Source: Buxus sempervirens (Eukaryota > Streptophyta > Magnoliopsida > Buxales > Buxaceae). From it: a stretch of 64,000 nt of DNA. How positions within the stretch are numbered: position 1 is the first letter of the stretch; every line of letters begins with the position of its first letter. The DNA is taken from NCBI GenBank assembly GCA_947561395.2, contig OX387182.1:56753283-56817282 (forward strand). The letters are read 5' to 3'. The notes under the pieces are model-generated. The model was not told the origin of the DNA and made no database searches. It was given only the letters and a program-made list of their open reading frames with translations. This document shows positions 11,466 to 50,199 of the stretch, piece by piece. A program made the position numbers and the translations under genes.

Positions 11466-11631
11466 GCAAAGGTTAGGGTTAGGGTTTGTGAGAATGGTAG
11501 ACACAACATAATGTCTATAGCCCACCAACCTTAACCCTAAGGCTATTTCCGAGATTTCCCCTCATTTAATGAGGGATATGATGGTAAAAGTGAAAAGCTC
11601 TCGGAAAACCCTAATTTTGAGCAAAACTTGT

Positions 11632-11775
11632 GTATCCGGTATATCAGGCCGGATACACAAGGGCCTTAAGGTATCCGGTATTATATACCGGATACACTAA
11701 GGATTGCTTGTATCCGGTATTTGTCACCGGATACAAAGAGGACTACTTGTATCCGGCCTGAGTTGCCGGATACAG
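11632..11775. repeat. Hairpin array A1: four TATCCGG/CCGGATA stem-loops
   Basis: Four units about 27 nt long, spaced about 38 nt apart. Stems are TGTATCCGG/CCGGATACA with one or two changes. Loops include TATATCAGG, TATTATATA, TATTTGTCA and CCTGAGTTG. The last unit matches hairpin 517-543 of family C over its whole length. Confidence 0.85.
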
Positions 11776-30708: not shown

Positions 30709-30851
30709 GTATCCGGCATGTCAGGCCGGATACACAAGTACCTTAATGTATCCGGTCTATGATGCCGGATACACTGAGGTCTACTTGTATCCGGTATTTT
30801 CCACCGGATACAAAGAAGGACACTTGTATACGGCCTGAGTTGCCGGATACA
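30709..30851. repeat. Hairpin array A2: four TATCCGG/CCGGATA stem-loops
   Basis: Same spacing as A1. Loops include CATGTCAGG, TCTATGATG, TATTTTCCA and CCTGAGTTG. The loops differ from A1 at several positions, whereas the stems are nearly unchanged. Confidence 0.85.
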
Positions 30852-30891
30852 AGGAAAAAAGCCTTTTTTTCGAATTTTAACACAGGCAATA

Positions 30892-33899: not shown

Positions 33900-34608
33900 G
33901 AGCTCCAAGCCTCCATTCCTCAAACCTGGTAGCTCCACATCATTACTGACATGGCAGCTTACATGTCATATGAGCTTAAACGTTTCTTCCTTTCCTCACT
34001 CGTTAAATTAACGAACACCCTTAACGCCTCCACATCTTCCTTCTGAGAGAACCTTGCGCGGTGAAAGCATCATACGTTTTGGAGGCGGCTGATAACGGAA
34101 GCAAAGAAGTAGCAGCAGTTAAGGAAACACGGCGATTGTAAACGGAAGACAATAATTGGAAGAAACTATGGCTGTTGGTCTTCCATAACGAAAGAGAACT
34201 TAAGCGGAAGGCCTCAGAAAAATTTATATTCTCCTCTTCTCATACAAACAGGCAAGCCTGGAAATATGTTTTGCTCTCACAAAGTCTATTTACCCATTAC
34301 AGCAAGCTTGGCATTCTGGATTTCTCTTTACTAGGTAAGTTCCAAACTAACCTTGGATTCATACTTTCATCTTTTTTTTTTTTTTTTGGTTTCGATTACT
34401 TTGTTAAGAGAACTATGTTCTGGCTTTTCCTCTCTTTCTTCTATATGTAATGTTCTCGATTTGATCTTTTAAACTAACCTTGGATTAATACTTCCGTTTG
34501 TTTTTTTTTTTTTCTGTTTCTATTACTTCGTTAACAGATCTATGTTCTGGCTTTTCCTCTCTTTCTTCTATTTGTCATGTTTTTTTTTTACCTACCCGTC
34601 AACTCTTC
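33900..34608 (+). other. Exon-like segment and T-rich direct repeats
   Basis: Position 34336 ends a purine-rich segment with ACTAG then GTAAGT, which looks like a non-coding first exon and donor. Next come two copies of a roughly 115-bp block (34345-34450 and 34470-34585) containing AAACTAACCTTGGATT, a long T run and TATGTTCTGGCTTTTCCTCT. Parts recur after LTR D (37888-38290). No protein is recognisable downstream. Confidence 0.35.
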
Positions 34609-34909
34609 TGTAAAATCCCGAATTTTAATAACATAAAAATATTTTAGATTTTGTTGTTAATTAGTTTAATTAATGAAAAATTTTAAAAAATTGAGAAGAG
34701 GAAATTAATTTGAGCTAAATTTAAAATCTAAATAGGATGAATTATTTAAAATGGGAAAATTTTATTTATTTGGGGGAGATGCTGGTGTAGGTTATCTGTG
34801 GAGTGGCAGGTACCTGATCGCACACTTAAATGAGTTGAATAGGTAGGAATCTTGGTGGGCGAGCGTTGCACCAAATCAAGTGTTTCAAAACTCGTCGAGC
34901 GGCGAAGGA

Positions 34910-34918
34910 TATATAAGG
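34910..34918 (+). promoter_or_regulatory. TATA box of LTR D
   Basis: TATATAAGG, with a second candidate TATAAATA a few bases downstream (about 34923-34930). Confidence 0.5.
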
Positions 34919-35208
34919 TAAGTATAAATACCTAGCGTATTTAGACTCGTAGGGTTTTTCTTTTCGTTTGCGGGTACTTTGAGTTGAAGGCGATTACGGC
35001 TGGTGATATAGGGTTTGGAGAGGAGAAGAAGTTTGGGTTTTCCTACCGATCCAGTTGTTCCGTGGTAAAGGTATCCAGGAAAGACACTCGCGAAACGAAG
35101 GAGTTTGGGTGCCGATCGACTGGGCGGTGATCGACTGTGTGTCGTGGATCTCGGTTGGTTTTTGCTTCACGAAGGGTGCTGTTGCAAAGACTTGGAAGCG
35201 CGTGTAAG

Positions 35209-35214
35209 GTGAGT
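35209..35214 (+). promoter_or_regulatory. 5' splice site in LTR D
   Basis: GTAAG then GTGAGT, about 290 nt after the TATA box, comparable to the donors in families A, B and C. Confidence 0.35.
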
Positions 35215-35771
35215 GGCACCGTTTTAAACCTGGTTTGTGTTATTCGTAGTTTTTGATTCAAATGAATGCATATGGTTGTCGAATGAATTATTCACTGGAT
35301 TTCTGGGCGGAGATAGTCCGAGGGATTTTCTGTATAACAAATTGGGAATAAATGAAAAGTGTGTTAGATTAATTTCAAAATATGTTTGAATGTGTTCTGG
35401 GGGTATTAGGAGACTAGAGGAGTGGTTACAGATTGAAAAATTTCGGCCAGAGTTGAAGATTTGGAGTTAACAGAGAATCGAAAAACACAGTGGGTATCCG
35501 CCCACTTGGTGCCCACTTCGGGAAGTAGGCGCATAGAAAAACCAGACCTGGCGCCGAGCTCCTGCCCACTTGGCGCTCAGCTCGCGCCAACTCAAATTTG
35601 ATGCGCTGTTCTCGCGCCTATCCCGCGCCCTTCTCCCGCCGACTTCGCGCCCTTCTTGCGCCCACTTACTATCGAGTAGGCGCATATCCGCCCACTTGGC
35701 GCTCACTGGCGCCCACTCGAGTTAAGTAAGCGCACCTACCCAAATTTGTTGAATTGGTTGAAAATAGCCCC

Positions 35772-35884
35772 CTTATTTACATAAAAGACATTTAAGTAAA
35801 TGTCCTGTGTATTTATTGCTCCATTTACTTAAATGTCCTGTGTATTTATTGCTCCATTTACTTAAGTCTTTACATGTAAATAAG
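35772..35884. repeat. Foldback with inner tandem duplication in LTR D
   Basis: CTTATTTACAT... pairs with ...ATGTAAATAAG. The middle contains a tandem duplication of about 40 bp (ATTTACTTAAATGTCCTGTG). It is followed by CCCCCCATTTGGAA and later GTCAACTTTCCAGTT, the same order as after 30973 in LTR A copy 2. Confidence 0.65.
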
Positions 35885-36778
35885 GTTTTACCCCCCATTT
35901 GGAACCAATAAAAATACTTCCAAGGTCTAATTCCCAGCCAATAAAAAGTCAACTTTCCAGTTCATGTCTAAATCCCGGTTTTAATCAAAAAGCCTGGTTT
36001 GGGTTTAATACCCAGATGAGTGATTCAGGAGCCCAGAAAATTCTAGGAGATGTGTTTACCCATCAATAGACTACAAACAAAATTTGAGCCCGAAACTCCT
36101 TGTAGAATTGTCTAGAAAAATTATATACCAAAAGTCAACGTTTTTTACTAGACTTAGAATATTTTGAGGTCCGAAACTTTTTGTCTCAGAATTGATTGCT
36201 TTTTGGTATGGTGACCTTATAGGGGATCCTAAGACTATTCCACTCATCCAAAATGTGTTTTGAGGTCTTTACAACATTCGTTTTGATTGATTTGGATTAT
36301 GAAAGCGAAATTGAGAATCTAGGAGATGTTTTGCTGATTTATGTTTAATCGAAGTTGGATGCTGAAATCATTTCTGTATAATGTGCTTTATTCTGAAAAG
36401 TCAGTTTTGAAACCATATTGTTTTGCTGAAATACATCTACACTATTATGCTAGTTCACCTTTGAATGCACAGTGCACTTCAGGAATGATTTACTGGAATA
36501 TTGTTTTATATCGGTGGCCAGTTTAGAATCATATCTTATTCTGTTCTAGTTGGAACACTTGTGAGGAATTACTGTTCTGGTTGGAACACTTGTGAAGAAT
36601 TACTGTTCTGGTTGGAACAACTAGTGATGTGTGTACTGAATGCGGAGTTTTAATTGGTGATTTATCGGTTTTGGTTTAGCTTGTCCTGGATCCAGAGTCT
36701 AAGCTTAGTAATGTGATGTATTTTGTTTTATTGGTGTAATGGCATGGCCATGGAGTGTTGCCACGACCAGTGTAGAGC

Positions 36779-36899
36779 AGCCAGAAACCCTGAGTAAGCC
36801 TGGTTGTCGATGCCGATACCCGGAGTAGGCCGGCATTGGATGACGATACCCTGAGTATGCCGTCATTTCAGAGTGTCCGATACCCTGAGTAGGCCGGAA
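36779..36899. repeat. Covarying hairpin array D1: four stem-loops
   Basis: Successive units keep the loop ACCCTGAGTAGGCC (small variants) while stems change on both sides: AGCCAG/CTGGTT, ATGCCG/CGGCAT, ATGACG/CGTCAT, TCCG/CGGA. Confidence 0.75.
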
Positions 36900-37094
36900 A
36901 TGTGTACATGGAGGTGTGGATGTCGCTCTGGCATGTAGATTAACCAATCTAAGCAACTACATGACATTGACCAATGTTGGTATTTGATTTTGTTTGACGT
37001 GATATGTTTTATTCGCTGGTTTGTTGGTATTTATGGTTCATGGAATATTGTTTACCGATTATTGGGTATTGTACCTCTCGCCAGTGTAGAGCAG

Positions 37095-37201
37095 CATCAT
37101 GACCCTGAGTGGTATGGTGTTGTCAATGCCGATACTCGGAGTAGGCTGGCATTGGATGACGCTGTCATTTCAATATCCGAAACCCTGAGTAGGCCGGATA
37201 T
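37095..37201. repeat. Covarying hairpin array D2: three stem-loops plus one collapsed
   Basis: Units are CATCAT/ATGGTG, CAATGCC/GGCATTG and ATATCCG/CGGATAT around CCCTGAGTAGG-like loops. A GATGACGCTGTCATT remnant looks like a unit that has lost its loop. Both arrays are preceded by CCAGTGTAGAGCAG, so D1 and D2 are a roughly 310-bp duplication. Confidence 0.75.
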
Positions 37202-37766
37202 ACATTGGAAGGCGTGGGCATTGGTTATGATGTGACTTTATTGTTGATACGGGTTGGGACCCGAGTTATATCTTTTGAGTTGTTGAACTATGTTTTCTTC
37301 GATATGTTGCTACCTGGTTATACATGACTTTACGGCTATATGCATGATTGATATCGTCTTTAATGCTTGGTTTATACGATGGTTTTCCTCACGGATGTAA
37401 ATTGGATCGTTGAAGTTTTGTTGGGTTATACGTGTTATCATCGTTGTATATGGTTTGTAATCGTGGCATGTTTTAGAACTGAACTAAATGTATTTGTGCA
37501 TGCATGTGCTGCTCACTGGGATATTCGTATCTCACCCCGTTGCTTTCGTTTTGTTTTCAGATACTCTCGGAGAGCTCGATACTTGCGGGTAGTTACTTAG
37601 ACATGTGAGTTTTATTTTAATTTGGGAATATTTTAGCGCACTCTGTTATATAGCTATGGTTGTATTCATGTTTTTCCTTCACTCTGATATTGCGATCCTG
37701 TGTTTTAAATTAACCTCCGGGGATGAGTTACGGTGTTATTTCGTGACTCGGATCCGGGGCGTTACA

Positions 37767-39191
37767 TCTTCTCATGACGTTTAAAAATCCATATGCATAG
37801 CAAGTTGGCAAACAACGAAATTGCCACATGGCTCAACATCTAAGCCATGGCATATAGACTAAGTAGTTCATTTATGAACTCAACGTCATTTTTCTGTTTC
37901 TATTACTTTGTTAACAGATCTATGCTCTGTTAGTTATGTTCAAAACATTCTTATAGTTGAATTTGACAAGATATTTTAGATACGTTAAACAATCTATGTT
38001 CAATAAATAAAAAAATATGTCCAATGAAGTGTGTAACCTGTTCAATATATTCTGAACAATCTTTAAATTATATGTTTTAAACAATATATGTTCGGTTAGT
38101 ACAAGTTATTTTTTGCAGCTCTTTTCTGTTTTACCCTTATATTGGATTCTCTTATGGTTTTTGCTGATTACTATAGTTTTTATTTTTTCTGTTTTACCCG
38201 GCAAATGTTCTCATGACTTTAAAAAATGCATATTCTCATGACTCAGCATCTAAGCCACGGCATATGGATGACTCTGTTACAATATATCAATTTAACAAAT
38301 TAGTTCTAGCAGAAACACAACAAAAATTAATGTACCTGCTATCTGTTAAGAGTGTGCAATTCGTTGATCATGCATCGTCAAATCGTATAATTGCCAGCTC
38401 ATTGATCAGATATTTTGAATTTCTTACCATGTGTTTCAGATGTCTTCGAAAAGCTTTGTTTGTTCCTTACAAGTATATTGAAATGCTAATCATTTGATCA
38501 AAAAATAAATAAATAGTGATTAATAGAGTTGCCCTACCACCAAGGGATCGAAAACTAGAGTTAAAAGTTGCTTCCCGTGACTTACTATTCTCAAGGTCTA
38601 TATCTAGCCTTTAAAGTTCTGTATTGTATTATGAGGAAAAAGATTTCTGACCACATACCACTTGGAGAAGAAATGAACTATGGTACTGTAAATTACATGA
38701 AATATGTGTGGTGCATCATACATACATATATTAAATTGTAAATCACCATAGCAAGGAGTCAATGACAATTTGCACCTATAAATTGTTACTACGGCTGCAA
38801 TATTTTGAACATTAATATTGACACTTGTTTCGTTATATAAGTTTCTGGGATAATATTTTGAACATTTCCCATTAAGCAGGTATGGACAATTTGGATTCAT
38901 TTAATGTAACCAAAACATTTGGCAACCAAGACGATTGTAACATTTTCCACAACACTGCACGCTTCAGCTTAGTTTGTAATGTTATAAGAGGGATAAAACG
39001 ATATATCATCTAAGTTTCAGATCGCTCTACTTTGTTTGAGCTCCTTACACTATGTTCTTTGTTTCTTTCTCCCAATCAAAATACAAAATAGAAGAGAGCA
39101 CGAAAGTTGTAGGCATGGCAGCTTCTAAGTTGAATCACTCGTATCTCTGTCTTTTGTAGTCAAAGAGTTCAAAGGCTTATACTTTCATACT
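37767..39191 (+). other. Continuation of the local tandem repeat; no gene
   Basis: TCTCATGACGTTTAAAAATC (37770) and TCTCATGACTTTAAAAAATG (38210) begin two diverged copies of a unit. These also contain CATCTAAGCCATGGCATAT and TTTCTGTTTCTATTACTT. LTR D interrupted one copy. The open stretch 38213-38497 lies in this repeat and shows no known domain. Confidence 0.45.
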
Positions 39192-42843: not shown

Positions 42844-43465
42844 TTAAGGGAAAATTACGAAAAAGGGCTACTTTACAGCAATTATTACAAAAACATGCCA
42901 CTAAGATGGCAAATTACACAAACATGCCACTTTACAGGAATAATTCCGATGAAGGGTCACTTAGGGTTTGTACAATCTTGAATGGCCAAAATACCCCTGG
43001 TTAAAAGGGGGGAAAAGGAGTTTCTCCATTTCGTTCGTCATCTCCAAAAAAAAAATTGCAGAGGGCGATTTCTCTCCGACGGAGAGGACCCCCTTTTTCT
43101 CTTCTCCTCCAGCAATTTTTCCGACGAAGGTGACCCCTTTTCGCTCTCCTTCTGTTCATCAACATTGCTCTTCACCGACCTCAACGTTGCATCAACATTG
43201 CTCCCCCTTTGATTGGTACCAGAAATACTCCGCCTTAGCTCCGCTGCTCAATCTCTACATTCCGCGGCATCATCGGATCCTCGTTGTTAGATGCGACAAC
43301 TCAGGTACCAGAAAATATTTATTTTATATATATTTTCTTCATCGAGATTATTCTATTCGATTTCCGCCATTAAAGTACCTTTTGTATAATTTTCCCTTTT
43401 TCTTTCCCCGCGAAATCTGTATCTTGATTGTGGCTTTGATATGTATGGATACGATTTGGGGTTGA

Positions 43466-43711
<246 letters not shown>

Positions 43712-44604
43712 TAATCCCTTTTCGTGGTTAGGGCATTTTGAGAGGATGGCTTAGTAAATGATAAGTTCTTTGCCACATGCTTTTACTCGGAGTGATACTC
43801 ATTTTGGGGCCAATAAACTACAGAAAGAATAATTGATGGTGTATTTCGAAAATGTATCAATCATGGTAAGTTTTACTAGGAACTTCAATTTGTCCTAGAG
43901 GGAATTTCTCCAATGACCGCTATCTAGTGCCGGAATAGCTGATTTAAACATTAGGTGATCCTGAAACAATTATGTAAATACTTGGTAAGGATTCTGTCTC
44001 ATTTGAGTCTTTGGCTCCTACTTGACGTGGGAAACTCTTAATGTGATCCTTCCATATCTTGATGTTATGATAATATATATGTCAAATTGTAGACTCATTT
44101 TGGAAAATGATTATAATTATTTTGATTAGAATTTTTTAGGATTTAAATGGTGGGTTTTGTTGTCAGTGGGAAAAGAACATTATCAACAAGTGGACAGAAT
44201 AGAAGAAAAATGTCTTGTGAGGAGGTTGAGGTTTTCTTACCCCTACCTTGAAGTGTCATGACCATGGAGGTCGCAGATTCTATATATTGATTTGTTTTTC
44301 AGTTTTGCAACACTCAAAATCCCAGTATGTTGGGATCAATATATTAGAAACAGTTAAAAGGGTTTAATGATCATTTGTGGTTCTCCTTAGGATAAAATAT
44401 CTTGTTTTGGACCATGCGCTTAATGGAATAAAATACTAATGGTATTTTTGAGAAGAAAAGGAAATAGTTAGCTTTGTGTCATCTTCATATGAATCATAAA
44501 TTGGCCTTACATATCATAGCTAATCTTTGTTGTCTACGTCATTTGAACACCTCTAAAAGAATGAAATATTAATCATGGCATCTGTTAGACTCTACCAAAA
44601 CAGA

Positions 44605-46083: not shown

Positions 46084-47495
46084 GCCTTCAGCGTAGGATA
46101 CATGGGACTCGAACGTTGCATACATGAGACTCGAGCTAGGTTACATAGGACTCAAGCACATCAATATGGGACTCAAGCTATTTTATTGAGGACTCGAGCG
46201 TATCATACGTGGGACTCGAGCTATTTTATTGAGGACTCGAGCGTAGCATACATGGGACTCGAGCGTATCATACGTGGGACTCGAGCTATTTTATTGAGGA
46301 CTCGAGCGTAGCATACATGGGACTCGAGCGTATCATACGTGGGACTCGAGCTATTTTATTGAGGACTTGAGCGTAGCATACGTGGGACTCGAGCTATTTT
46401 ATTGAGGACTCGAGCGTAACATACATGGGACTTGAGCGTATCATACGTGGGACTCGAACTATTTTATTGAGGACTCGAGCGTAGCATACATGGGACTCGA
46501 GTGTATCATACGTGGGACTCGAGCTAGTTTACGTAGGACTCAAGCGCATCAATATGGGACACAAGCTATTTTATTGAGGACTCAAGTATAGCATACATGG
46601 GACTCGAGTGTATCATACGTGGGACTCGAGCTATTTTATTGAAGACTCGAGCGTAGCATACATGGGATTTGAGCGTATCATATGTGGGACTCGAGTTATT
46701 TTATTGAGGACTCGAGCGTAGCATACATGGGACTCGAGCGTATCATATGTGGGACTTGAGCTATTTTATTGAGGACTCGAGCGTTGCATACATGGGACTC
46801 GAGTGTATCATACGTGGGACTCGAGCTAGTTTACGTAAGACTCAAGCGCATCAATATGGGACACAAGCTATTTTATTGAGGACTCGAGTATAGCATACAT
46901 GGGACTCGAGCGTATCATACGTGGGACTCAAGCTATTTTATTGAAGACTTGAGCGTATCATATGTGGGACTCGAGCTATTTTATTGAGGACTCAAGCGTC
47001 ACATACATGGGATTTGAGCGTATCATACGTGATACTTGAGCTAGTTTACGTAGGACTCAAGCGCATTAATATGGGACTCAAGCTATTTTACTGAGGACTC
47101 GAGCGTAGCATACATGGGACTCGAGTGTATCATACGTGAGACTCAAGCTAGTTTACGTAGGATTCAAGCGCATCAATATGGGACTCGAGCTATTTTATTA
47201 AGGACTCAAGCGTAGGATATATGGGACTCGAGAGTAGCATACATGGGACTCAAGCTAATTTACATAGGACTCAAGCGTATCAATATGGGACTCAAGCTAT
47301 TTTATTTAGGACTCGAGCATAGCATAGATGGGACTCAAGCGTATCATACATGGGACAGAAGCGTATCATACATGGGACCTGCGCTACTTTACGTTGGATT
47401 GAGCGCGTCAAACATGGGACTCAAGCTACTTTAAGTTCAACTCAAGCATAGCATAAATGGGACTCAAGTGTAGCATACATGGGATTCGAGCGTAA
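46084..47495. repeat. CTCGAG minisatellite, about 1.4 kb
   Basis: The basic unit is 20-23 bp: GGGACTCGAG followed by one of a few spacers (CGTATCATACGT, CTATTTTATTGA, CGTAGCATACAT, CTAGTTTACGTA). Three units commonly form a 65-bp higher-order repeat. More than 60 units; the edges are more diverged than the centre. Frames through it are incidental. Confidence 0.9.
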
Positions 47496-47920: not shown

Positions 47921-49084
47921 CTATACAAAGCAAAAGGAGATGTAAGGGAAGGATAATGAGACAGTAAAATGTAATACCACATTACTATCTTTTATAGTGT
48001 AGACAAGTGAAAGTTAATCATGAATTCACTTTATGGCATCTCAAAGTTCAGAGCTAAATCATAATCATAAGCGACACGATCTTGTTACAACAAAGCATAA
48101 AAAAATATACAAAAAGCCTCAAAACAGAAATAAGGAAGAGGATTTGCCAGATATAAGTTTATATATAAGAACATGCCCAACTGAATAAGATTGTCAGCAT
48201 CAAAATCTGCTCATCATACAATAGTAGCTTGATCCAGATAACAAATCTCTTCCAAAAAGATTAACGAAACAAGCTGAACAAGCCAAGGATTTCTTTTCAA
48301 TATTCCTATTCATTCTATTTATAAGCTGCCCATATTATTGCTCCTTCACTGATACACAAATTTAATAGAGAAAGGTGAAATTCATGGGGCTTTAAACTCG
48401 ACCAAGCAGCCATTTAAATATATCAATTCTCACATGTGAACATAGAATTAATTTGATTAACTGTAATGCAAAGGGACAAATAGGAGAAGCCAAAACTGAA
48501 AAACAAATCAATATATAGAATCTACGACCTCCATGGTCATGACACTTCAAGGTAGGGGTAAGAAAACCTCAACCTCCTCACAAGACATTTTTCTTCTTTT
48601 CTGTCCACTTGTTGATAATGTTCTTTTCCCATTGACAACAAAACCCACCATTTAAATCCTAATAAATTCAAATCAAAATAATTATAATCATTTTCCAAAA
48701 TGAGTCTACAATTTGACATATATTATCATAACATCAAGATATGGAAAGATCACATTAAGAGTTTCCCACGTCAAGTAGGAGCCAAAGACTCAAATGAGAC
48801 AGAATCCTTACCAAGTATTTACATAATTGTTTCAGGATCACCTAATGTTTAAATCAGCTATTCCGGCACTAGATAGCGGTCATTGGAGAAATTCCCTCCA
48901 GGACAAATTGAAGTTCCTAGTAAAGCTTACCATGATTGATGCATTTTCGACATACACCATCAATTATTCTTTCTGTAGTTTATTGGCCCCAAAATGAGTA
49001 TCACTCCGAGTAAAAGCATGTGGCAAAGAACTTATCATTTACTAAGCCATCCTCTCAAAATGCCCTAACCACGAAAAGGGATTA

Positions 49085-49375
<291 letters not shown>

Positions 49376-50199
49376 TTATGCAAAAGGTACTTTAATGGTG
49401 GAAATCGAATAGAATAATCTCGATGAAGAAAATATATATAAAATAAATATTTTTTGGTACCTGAGTTGTCGCATCTAACAACAAGGATTCGATGATGCCG
49501 CGAAATGTAGAGATTGAGCAGCGGAGCTAAGGCGGAGTATTTCTGGTACCAATCAAAGGGGGAGCGATGTTGATGCAACGTTGAGGTCGGTGAAGAGCAA
49601 TGTTGATGAACAGAAGGAAAGCGAAAAGGGATCACCTTCGTCGGAAAAATTGCTAGAGGAGAAGAGAAAAACGGGGTCGTCTTCGTCGGAGAGAAATCGC
49701 CCTTTGCATTTTTTTTTAGATGATGAACGAAATGGAGAAGCTCCTTTTTCCCCCCTTTTAACCAGGGGTATTTTGGCCATTCAAGATGGTACAAACCCTA
49801 AGTGACCCTTCATCGGAATTATTCCTGTAAAGTGGCATGTTTGTGTAATTTGCCATCTTATTGGCATGTTTTTGTAATAATGGCTGTAAAGTAGCCCTTT
49901 TTTCGTAATTTTCCCTTAAGGGGGACTTCTACGGATGTATTACCCAAAAAAAAAAAAAAAAGGGTGTACATGTAATGCTTGTTTAATGTAAGATATATAC
50001 AAAATTTCTATGAAAGAAAAAAACGGAAAACGCTTAGCACGTCCGAATACCTGCGTGAAAGCTACGAGGGATGAATGCTTTCGGCTAGCTTTCTCTTATT
50101 TTCATACAAAAACACATGCCAGTGTTCGCTTTCTATATAACAGAACCGGTGATAGTCATGTTATTCATTACATGAGCATCTGTAGTGAGCAGTGACAGG

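Follow-up and report, generated by a model that had tools for sequence, protein, structure and literature searches.

A solo LTR in the Buxus sempervirens genome carries an array of four hairpins in which nearly the same 15-nt loop is borne by four different stems (36777-36901). The array and the domain around it are the best conserved part of the LTR, changes inherited by several copies mostly keep the pairing, and the C-G pairs decay in a manner that points to selection on the sense RNA. Tentatively, and with somewhat less than even confidence, we propose that the array belongs to a sense-RNA domain in a leader intron that would be recognised by Gag for the packaging of genomic RNA. The window, i.e., the whole stretch of DNA analysed, spans 64,000 nucleotides (contig OX387182.1, positions 56,753,283 to 56,817,282), and all coordinates below are window coordinates unless a contig is given.

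The hairpin array and its copies

The window copy of the LTR, LTR D, is a solo LTR without a coding region. Its borders and hairpins are as follows:

34604..34608, no strand: left target site duplication TCTTC, before LTR D
34609..37766, plus strand: solo LTR 'D', ends TGTAAAATCCC...GGGGCGTTACA, with a 5-bp target duplication
37767..37771, no strand: right target site duplication TCTTC, after LTR D
36777..36807, plus strand: hairpin H1, arms 36777-36784 and 36800-36807
36808..36838, plus strand: hairpin H2, arms 36808-36815 and 36831-36838
36839..36867, plus strand: hairpin H3, arms 36839-36845 and 36861-36867
36872..36901, plus strand: hairpin H4, arms 36872-36879 and 36895-36901, with a 1-nt bulge and one mismatch in the window copy
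37081..37201, plus strand: degenerate second array, a duplicate of the first
37092-37122, 37124-37154, 37155-37169 and 37173-37201, plus strand: H1', H2', loop-less H3' and H4' of the second array

The stems are CCAG/CTGG in H1, ATGCCG/CGGCAT in H2, ATGACG/CGTCAT in H3, and TCCG/CGGA with an outer AGT/ACT in H4, where a 1-nt bulge is frequent. An earlier note on this DNA had described seven consecutive stem-loops, whose stems differ entirely yet remain paired. All five stems that it named (ATGCCG/CGGCAT, ATGACG/CGTCAT, CAATGCC/GGCATTG, ATATCCG/CGGATAT and TCCG/CGGA) were present in the window, and seven stem-loops can be drawn, but they fall into two groups, four at 36777-36901 and three, plus a loop-less one, at 37092-37201. 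Pairing of differing stems holds for the four primary hairpins, with the exception of the bulge and the mismatch in the window copy of H4. The stems are not all independently different: judged by 83% identity between 36767-36845 and 37081-37161, the second array is a degenerate duplicate of the first, and H2 and its second-array copy have a common stem by that duplication. H3' lacks almost exactly its 15-nt loop and is a bare palindrome, as is also the case in related copies such as L078 and L083.

The loop 12-mer CCTGAGTAGGCC was found as an exact match 13,983 times in the 676.5-Mb genome (247 contigs), versus 26 times for the same word read backwards. The window contained 33 hairpins with a stem of at least 6 and a CTGAGT- or CGGAGT-type loop, a count that covers both strands and includes nested variants, two further arrays (A and C, see below) and two unrelated places; five dinucleotide shuffles contained 0 to 4. 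When the arms of seven distinct hairpins were swapped, 158 of 294 stem positions were paired, versus 49 of 49 for the hairpins' own arms (G-U allowed), although these hairpins, which include two divergent H1' and one H4', with H4 and one H1' taken from other copies, were chosen by hand as good examples, and the 49/49 figure therefore partly reflects selection. Without any choice, each of the 28 stem pairs was standard in 88 to 101 of 101 copies.

These copies were drawn from 120 sequences, the window and 119 loci. One sequence without anchors and nine identical to others were dropped, which left 110 unique copies, and nine more fell outside the length of 160-170 nt. The full-length first array, with H1 to H4 in unchanged order, was thus present in 101 of the 110 unique copies, and most of the other nine lack some of the hairpins or have extra ones. 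Of the loci, the first 40 were picked by the exact loop 12-mer in the first 18 Mb of contig C1, loci L051-L070 by the H1 stem-loop (19 exact, one with one mismatch), L071-L090 by similarity to the window LTR, and L091-L129 by an exact flank word that occurs 2,768 times in the genome. Since the flank word holds the three outermost letters of the H1 5' arm and a strand of the junction-closing helix described below, these pairs were not freely sampled. The second pair of H1 was A-T in 78 and C-G in 21 of the 101 copies, and 19 of the 21 C-G copies stem from loci picked for this variant, the exceptions being L029 and L034. An alternative pair in H2, on which no copies were selected, was C-G (CCG/CGG) in 63 and A-T (CAG/CTG) in 26 of the 101.

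Some copies are near neighbours. The arrays of L017, L030 and L031 (C1 at 8.88, 8.94 and 9.00 Mb) are identical and spaced by 61,027-61,028 bases, apparently through a tandem 61-kb duplication in the assembly. A stretch of ~1.56 kb located 228 kb upstream of LTR D (G000:C1:56561298-56562854) is 100% identical to it and may be either a segmental duplication or an assembly duplicate.

Conservation along the LTR was followed in 60-base windows over 12 aligned LTRs, namely the 15 with a target duplication minus L037, L038 and L045, which were excluded by eye as near-copies. Mean pairwise identity was 0.74 to 0.89 across 36649-36948, values that are inflated in the hairpin windows because the 11 fetched LTRs were found via one loop 12-mer. 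Outside this block no 60-base window exceeded 0.67, and 36 of the other 47 lay between 0.2 and 0.5. Flanks that do not contain the loop word were still conserved (0.74 at 36649-36708 and 0.84 at 36709-36768).

Fold of the domain and changes in its pairs

A consensus fold was calculated from 62 copies (371 columns), selected out of 81 candidates, the rest of which had no flank, were of the wrong length or were identical to others. In the predicted fold, H1-H4 project from a junction closed by the helix CCAC-ACC-GTGTA/TACAT-GGT-GTGG, and the array is enclosed by a long-range helix, so that the domain measures ~260 nt (36710-36968):

36710..36735, plus strand: 5' strand of the long-range closing helix (inverted repeat I1, 77% complementary; consensus fold)
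36761..36774, plus strand: 5' strand of the junction-closing helix (CCAC, ACC, GTGTA; consensus fold)
36905..36919, plus strand: 3' strand of the junction-closing helix (TACAT, GGT, GTGG; consensus fold)
36943..36968, plus strand: 3' strand of the long-range closing helix (inverted repeat I1; consensus fold)

Some pairs of the long-range helix are poorly kept, with pairing in, e.g., 39 of 62 or 43 of 60 copies. The consensus fold had an energy of -111.8 for the sense strand and -99.5 for the antisense strand. Single-copy fold energies were unremarkable when compared with shuffles (mean z of -0.9 sense and -1.4 antisense in 15 copies; -1.06 and -1.50 in the window copy, antisense being no worse). 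Other strongly folding stretches are found in the same LTR at 35500-35868, with GGCGC/GCGCC-type and ATTTACTTAAATG-type inverted repeats and a folding z of about -5 at 35629-35748 and -4.6 at 35749-35868.

To follow changes in the pairs, substitutions were placed on a tree of the copies and called inherited when common to a clade of a given size and private when present in a single copy. On the array tree (101 copies), 17 of the 19 changes inherited by clades of at least three preserved the pairing and two disrupted it. Of the 142 private changes, 76 preserved and 66 disrupted it (65 in another run, as the counts vary with random tie-breaking; one-sided p = 0.002 for the contrast). With clades of at least two, 25 changes kept and 10 broke the pairing (p = 0.04). 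In the domain (86 pairs), the ratio of keeping to breaking was 45:17 at clade size two, versus 139:156 for private changes (p = 0.0002), and 29:16 at clade size three (p = 0.02); at clade size of at least four it was 17:11, and the contrast with 139:156 was no longer significant (p = 0.12). Several of the inherited changes go via G-U pairs.

A single transition in a C-G pair yields either G-U, which is paired in the sense RNA, or C-A, which is not. Inherited decay of C-G pairs in the domain produced 20 G-U and 4 C-A (p = 0.0015), and private decay 95 G-U and 70 C-A (p = 0.06). The bias was absent from unpaired columns; in the array alone, the G-U to C-A counts were 14:7 for inherited and 55:41 for private changes, which is not significant. 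With the fold of the opposite strand, the bias on inherited branches was reversed (5 G-U versus 19 C-A), and for pairs that both folds predict, the sense direction gave 17 versus 3. The folding program is therefore not the source of the bias. We conclude that the strand bias points to selection on the sense RNA.

The earlier note had argued for selection on structure and for a structured RNA or DNA module. The former is borne out by the conservation of the array and by inherited changes that mostly preserve pairing, and for the latter the asymmetry between G-U and C-A favours the RNA side. The "classical" covariation that it had invoked is only weakly present. Covariation was tested by a procedure modelled on R-scape (G statistic, background correction, and a null in which substitutions were re-dealt on the tree). 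In the array alignment (101 copies), 0 of 28 structure pairs reached E < 0.05, while the best two of 12,880 column pairs were both structure pairs (E 0.42 and 1.05); when selected copies were removed (82 left), only the top pair was structural (E 0.8). In the domain alignment (62 copies), 1 of 100 structure pairs was significant, H1 pair 147-165 (E = 0.02, one-set test), a signal that rests on the 19 of 62 copies selected for that stem and vanishes without them, the top pairs then being non-structural (best E 0.09). Pair 102-306 had an E of 0.03 in a two-set test, both with and without the H1-selected copies. Covariation is weak because the family is too conserved and independent changes are too few.

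Weak covariation is also what would be expected of a functionless mutational origin, in which template switching perfected imperfect palindromes and duplication then spread them. The duplication that gave the second array, and the absence of almost exactly the loop from H3', fit such an origin as well. We nevertheless consider it highly improbable, since the domain, including its flanks without the loop word, is conserved far above the rest of the LTR, and since inherited changes pass via G-U pairs.

The array could also act as a DNA-level element, i.e., as an enhancer, as protein-binding palindromes or as cruciforms, and arrays A and C elsewhere in the window, which have tandem hairpin-like repeats near presumed promoters, are in line with this. 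In the copies read, however, the D loop is found in a single orientation, the array lies ~1.85 kb downstream of the candidate TATA box, and DNA pairing would not yield a strand-specific bias of G-U versus C-A. A DNA-level role of array D is thus already disfavoured, and we regard it as very unlikely. Arrays A and C themselves (439-543, 1405-1551, 11630-11774 and 30823-30853) fit DNA-level repeats better. Their stem, GTATCCGG/CCGGATAC, hardly changes, whereas the loops vary and include CCTGAGTT and, in reverse complement, AACTCAGG; relative to a TATA-like box close by, the loop is oriented differently in A than in C. A kinship of these arrays with D, suggested earlier on the strength of the common CCTGAGT, could not be established. 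The A and C hairpins occur in both orientations relative to presumed promoters.

Elsewhere in the window, units of 43, 65 and 107 bp that contain GGACTCGAG are repeated in tandem at 46105-47433, and two ~1.4-kb sequences of 96-98% identity (42844-44307 and 48491-49919) form an inverted pair with ~4 kb between them.

The host element and the putative leader intron

The LTR has TG..CA borders, a 5-bp target duplication and, in a related copy, an adjacent primer-like site. A perfect 5-bp duplication was found at 15 of 41 loci, a few of which may be due to chance, as several candidate ends were tried. Directly after the related 5' LTR of locus L017 lies the primer-binding-like site TGGTATCAGAG, which we take to be a tRNA primer site. 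The LTR end followed by TGGTATCAGAG was found at 794 sites genome-wide, not necessarily all of the same family, and at 0 sites in the reversed control. Self-priming by a 5' hairpin, which occurs in some chromoviruses according to the accessible passages of PMC3601003, was set aside in view of this tRNA-primer-like site behind the LTR.

Donor words recur as pairs ~7.3 kb apart, e.g., at C1:24007678 and 24015038, and locus L131 is the interior of the element with this pair. Its open frames matched Retrotrans_gag, zf-CCHC, RVP_2, RVT_1, RT_RNaseH, Integrase_H2C2 and rve, in the gypsy order, with the rve match (31.3 bits) below the cut-off of 32.6; a Pfam Chromo match was marginal (25.0 bits, E 1.8e-5, versus a curated cut-off of 25.1). 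The array-bearing 5' LTR L017 matches L131 at 97% identity over 1948 nt. By its domain content, L017/L131 is classified as a Ty3/gypsy element of chromovirus type, with the chromodomain match being marginal; going by the length of the LTR, it may belong to the Tekay/Del clade.

Another locus, L130, carries gag, integrase and RT domains of Ty1/copia type downstream of this LTR end and its primer-like site. It was set aside as the host element because the intact array element is Ty3/gypsy, and it may represent a nested insertion, a neighbourhood or a chimera. At L048, a leader similar to that of L130 begins 57 nt behind an array LTR; this LTR has its own 5-bp duplication and may be an unrelated solo LTR. 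L132, which adjoins a relative of the window subfamily, contained zero ORFs of 150 aa and has a second LTR-like start 258 nt in.

Promoter-like and splice-like motifs of LTR D are the following:

34923..34930, plus strand: candidate TATA box, by motif only, with a further TATA-like site at 34910
35209..35215, plus strand: candidate 5' splice site AG/GTGAGTG, by motif, with GT at 35209
37540..37560, plus strand: candidate 3' splice site, a pyrimidine tract and CAG (ending at 37560) before ATAC

The predicted donor and acceptor bracket the hairpin domain inside the LTR, and both motifs are common to diverged LTRs with differing exon-side letters. By strict patterns, the AG/GTGAGTR donor was found in 18 of 41 loci and the acceptor in 23 of 41. 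Three of the 18 trace to segmental duplication of a single locus, and L019 and L044 have the donor at differing distances. In one subfamily, with at most three mismatches allowed, there were 535 donor sites and no match to a spliced junction, i.e., no LTR copy lacking exactly the putative intron, which fits a leader intron and yet is also expected if splicing never occurs. According to the accessible part of PMC12786077, plant LTR elements are mostly without introns, with exceptions; an intron in the LTR would therefore be unusual.

The donor and acceptor motifs that flank the domain in diverged LTRs are also compatible with a domain that regulates the splicing of the leader (through the use of LTR splice sites) or its translation (by shielding upstream AUGs). 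This seems quite unlikely to us, as splicing control would not by itself call for a loop repeated fourfold on differing stems. An Rfam search with the whole LTR D returned two chance-level matches (E 1.3), both outside the hairpin domain, and the domain itself had zero matches to Rfam families at E up to 5, neither to a hammerhead (retrozyme-like) nor to another known RNA.

Proposed role and known systems

The hairpins, their conservation, the keeping of pairs by inherited changes and the strand bias are observed; transcription, splicing, a binding protein and packaging are inferred. The chromovirus-type element would make a sense RNA in which the ~260-nt domain folds as one unit, its junction closed by the long-range helix and its hairpins exposed as arms, each with the near-identical loop. 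As the domain is located between the candidate donor and acceptor, only leader RNA that stays unspliced would contain it. The same loop on unrelated stems within a conserved fold suggests repeated recognition of the loop by a protein, which would most likely be the element's zinc-knuckle Gag. Since the domain would be removable by splicing, it could tag unspliced genomic RNA for packaging or export; Gag, by reading the loop, would mark that RNA for packaging, and a packaging tag inside the putative intron would explain why LTR copies retain the intron. On the doubtful side is the wider idea that the LTR keeps an intron of its own to house a multi-hairpin RNA tag, with the loop repeated four times on interchangeable stems, and that copying unspliced RNA only would both proofread the RNA and protect the intron.

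Packaging by Gag would be our first choice and nuclear export our second. The domain could be an export element for intron-containing genomic RNA that acts via host factors, in the manner of RTE, MTE or CTE. Its position in a putative intron, its size and its multi-armed fold are all compatible with export. The RTE has a multi-hairpin architecture, and the CTE of simple retroviruses is an export element. In the accessible passages of a 2025 review (PMC12786077), RNA export in plant LTR elements appears as not directly studied, and RTE and MTE are cited as cis-acting export elements. The fourfold loop, however, fits a binding protein that oligomerises, for instance Gag, no less well, and the empty Rfam search of the domain speaks against an export element of a known kind; we therefore think export unlikely.

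How plant LTR elements distinguish genomic RNA from mRNA, and how genomic RNA exits the nucleus, is poorly known, and a small conserved RNA domain, with a flank word found 2,768 times in one genome, offers a concrete candidate for probing. A literature search, largely without subscription papers, returned no description of such a hairpin array in a plant LTR.

Among plant elements, short repeated motifs in an LTR are likewise present as tandem repeats in U3 of tobacco Tnt1; in the accessible text of PMC3601003, repeats of this type are tied to transcription, whereas the D array follows the candidate promoter and shows a strand bias in its pairing. For barley BARE, the passages available from PMC3735527 argue that one class of unspliced RNA is packaged and that spliced RNA must be avoided, and they mention conserved dimerization and packaging signals. 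BARE and LTR D both represent plant LTR elements, but separate ones, and those passages (PMC3735527) contain no LTR hairpin array. The RTE of mouse IAP and the MTE of musD are structured cis export signals, according to the accessible parts of PMC12786077 and PMC1363727; like the domain described here, they are structured cis elements of LTR elements, and they act on full-length RNA. The likeness lies in structure, and an export role of the LTR D domain is a proposal.

The preferred reading, packaging by Gag, has a parallel in retroviruses. Retroviral psi is a multi-stem-loop packaging signal, a structured leader RNA with several exposed loops. The domain of LTR D, which also lies downstream of a candidate splice donor, would correspond to a psi that follows the major splice donor. 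It differs from psi in being located within the LTR and within a putative intron, and in presenting one 15-nt loop on four stems, through which it may serve packaging.
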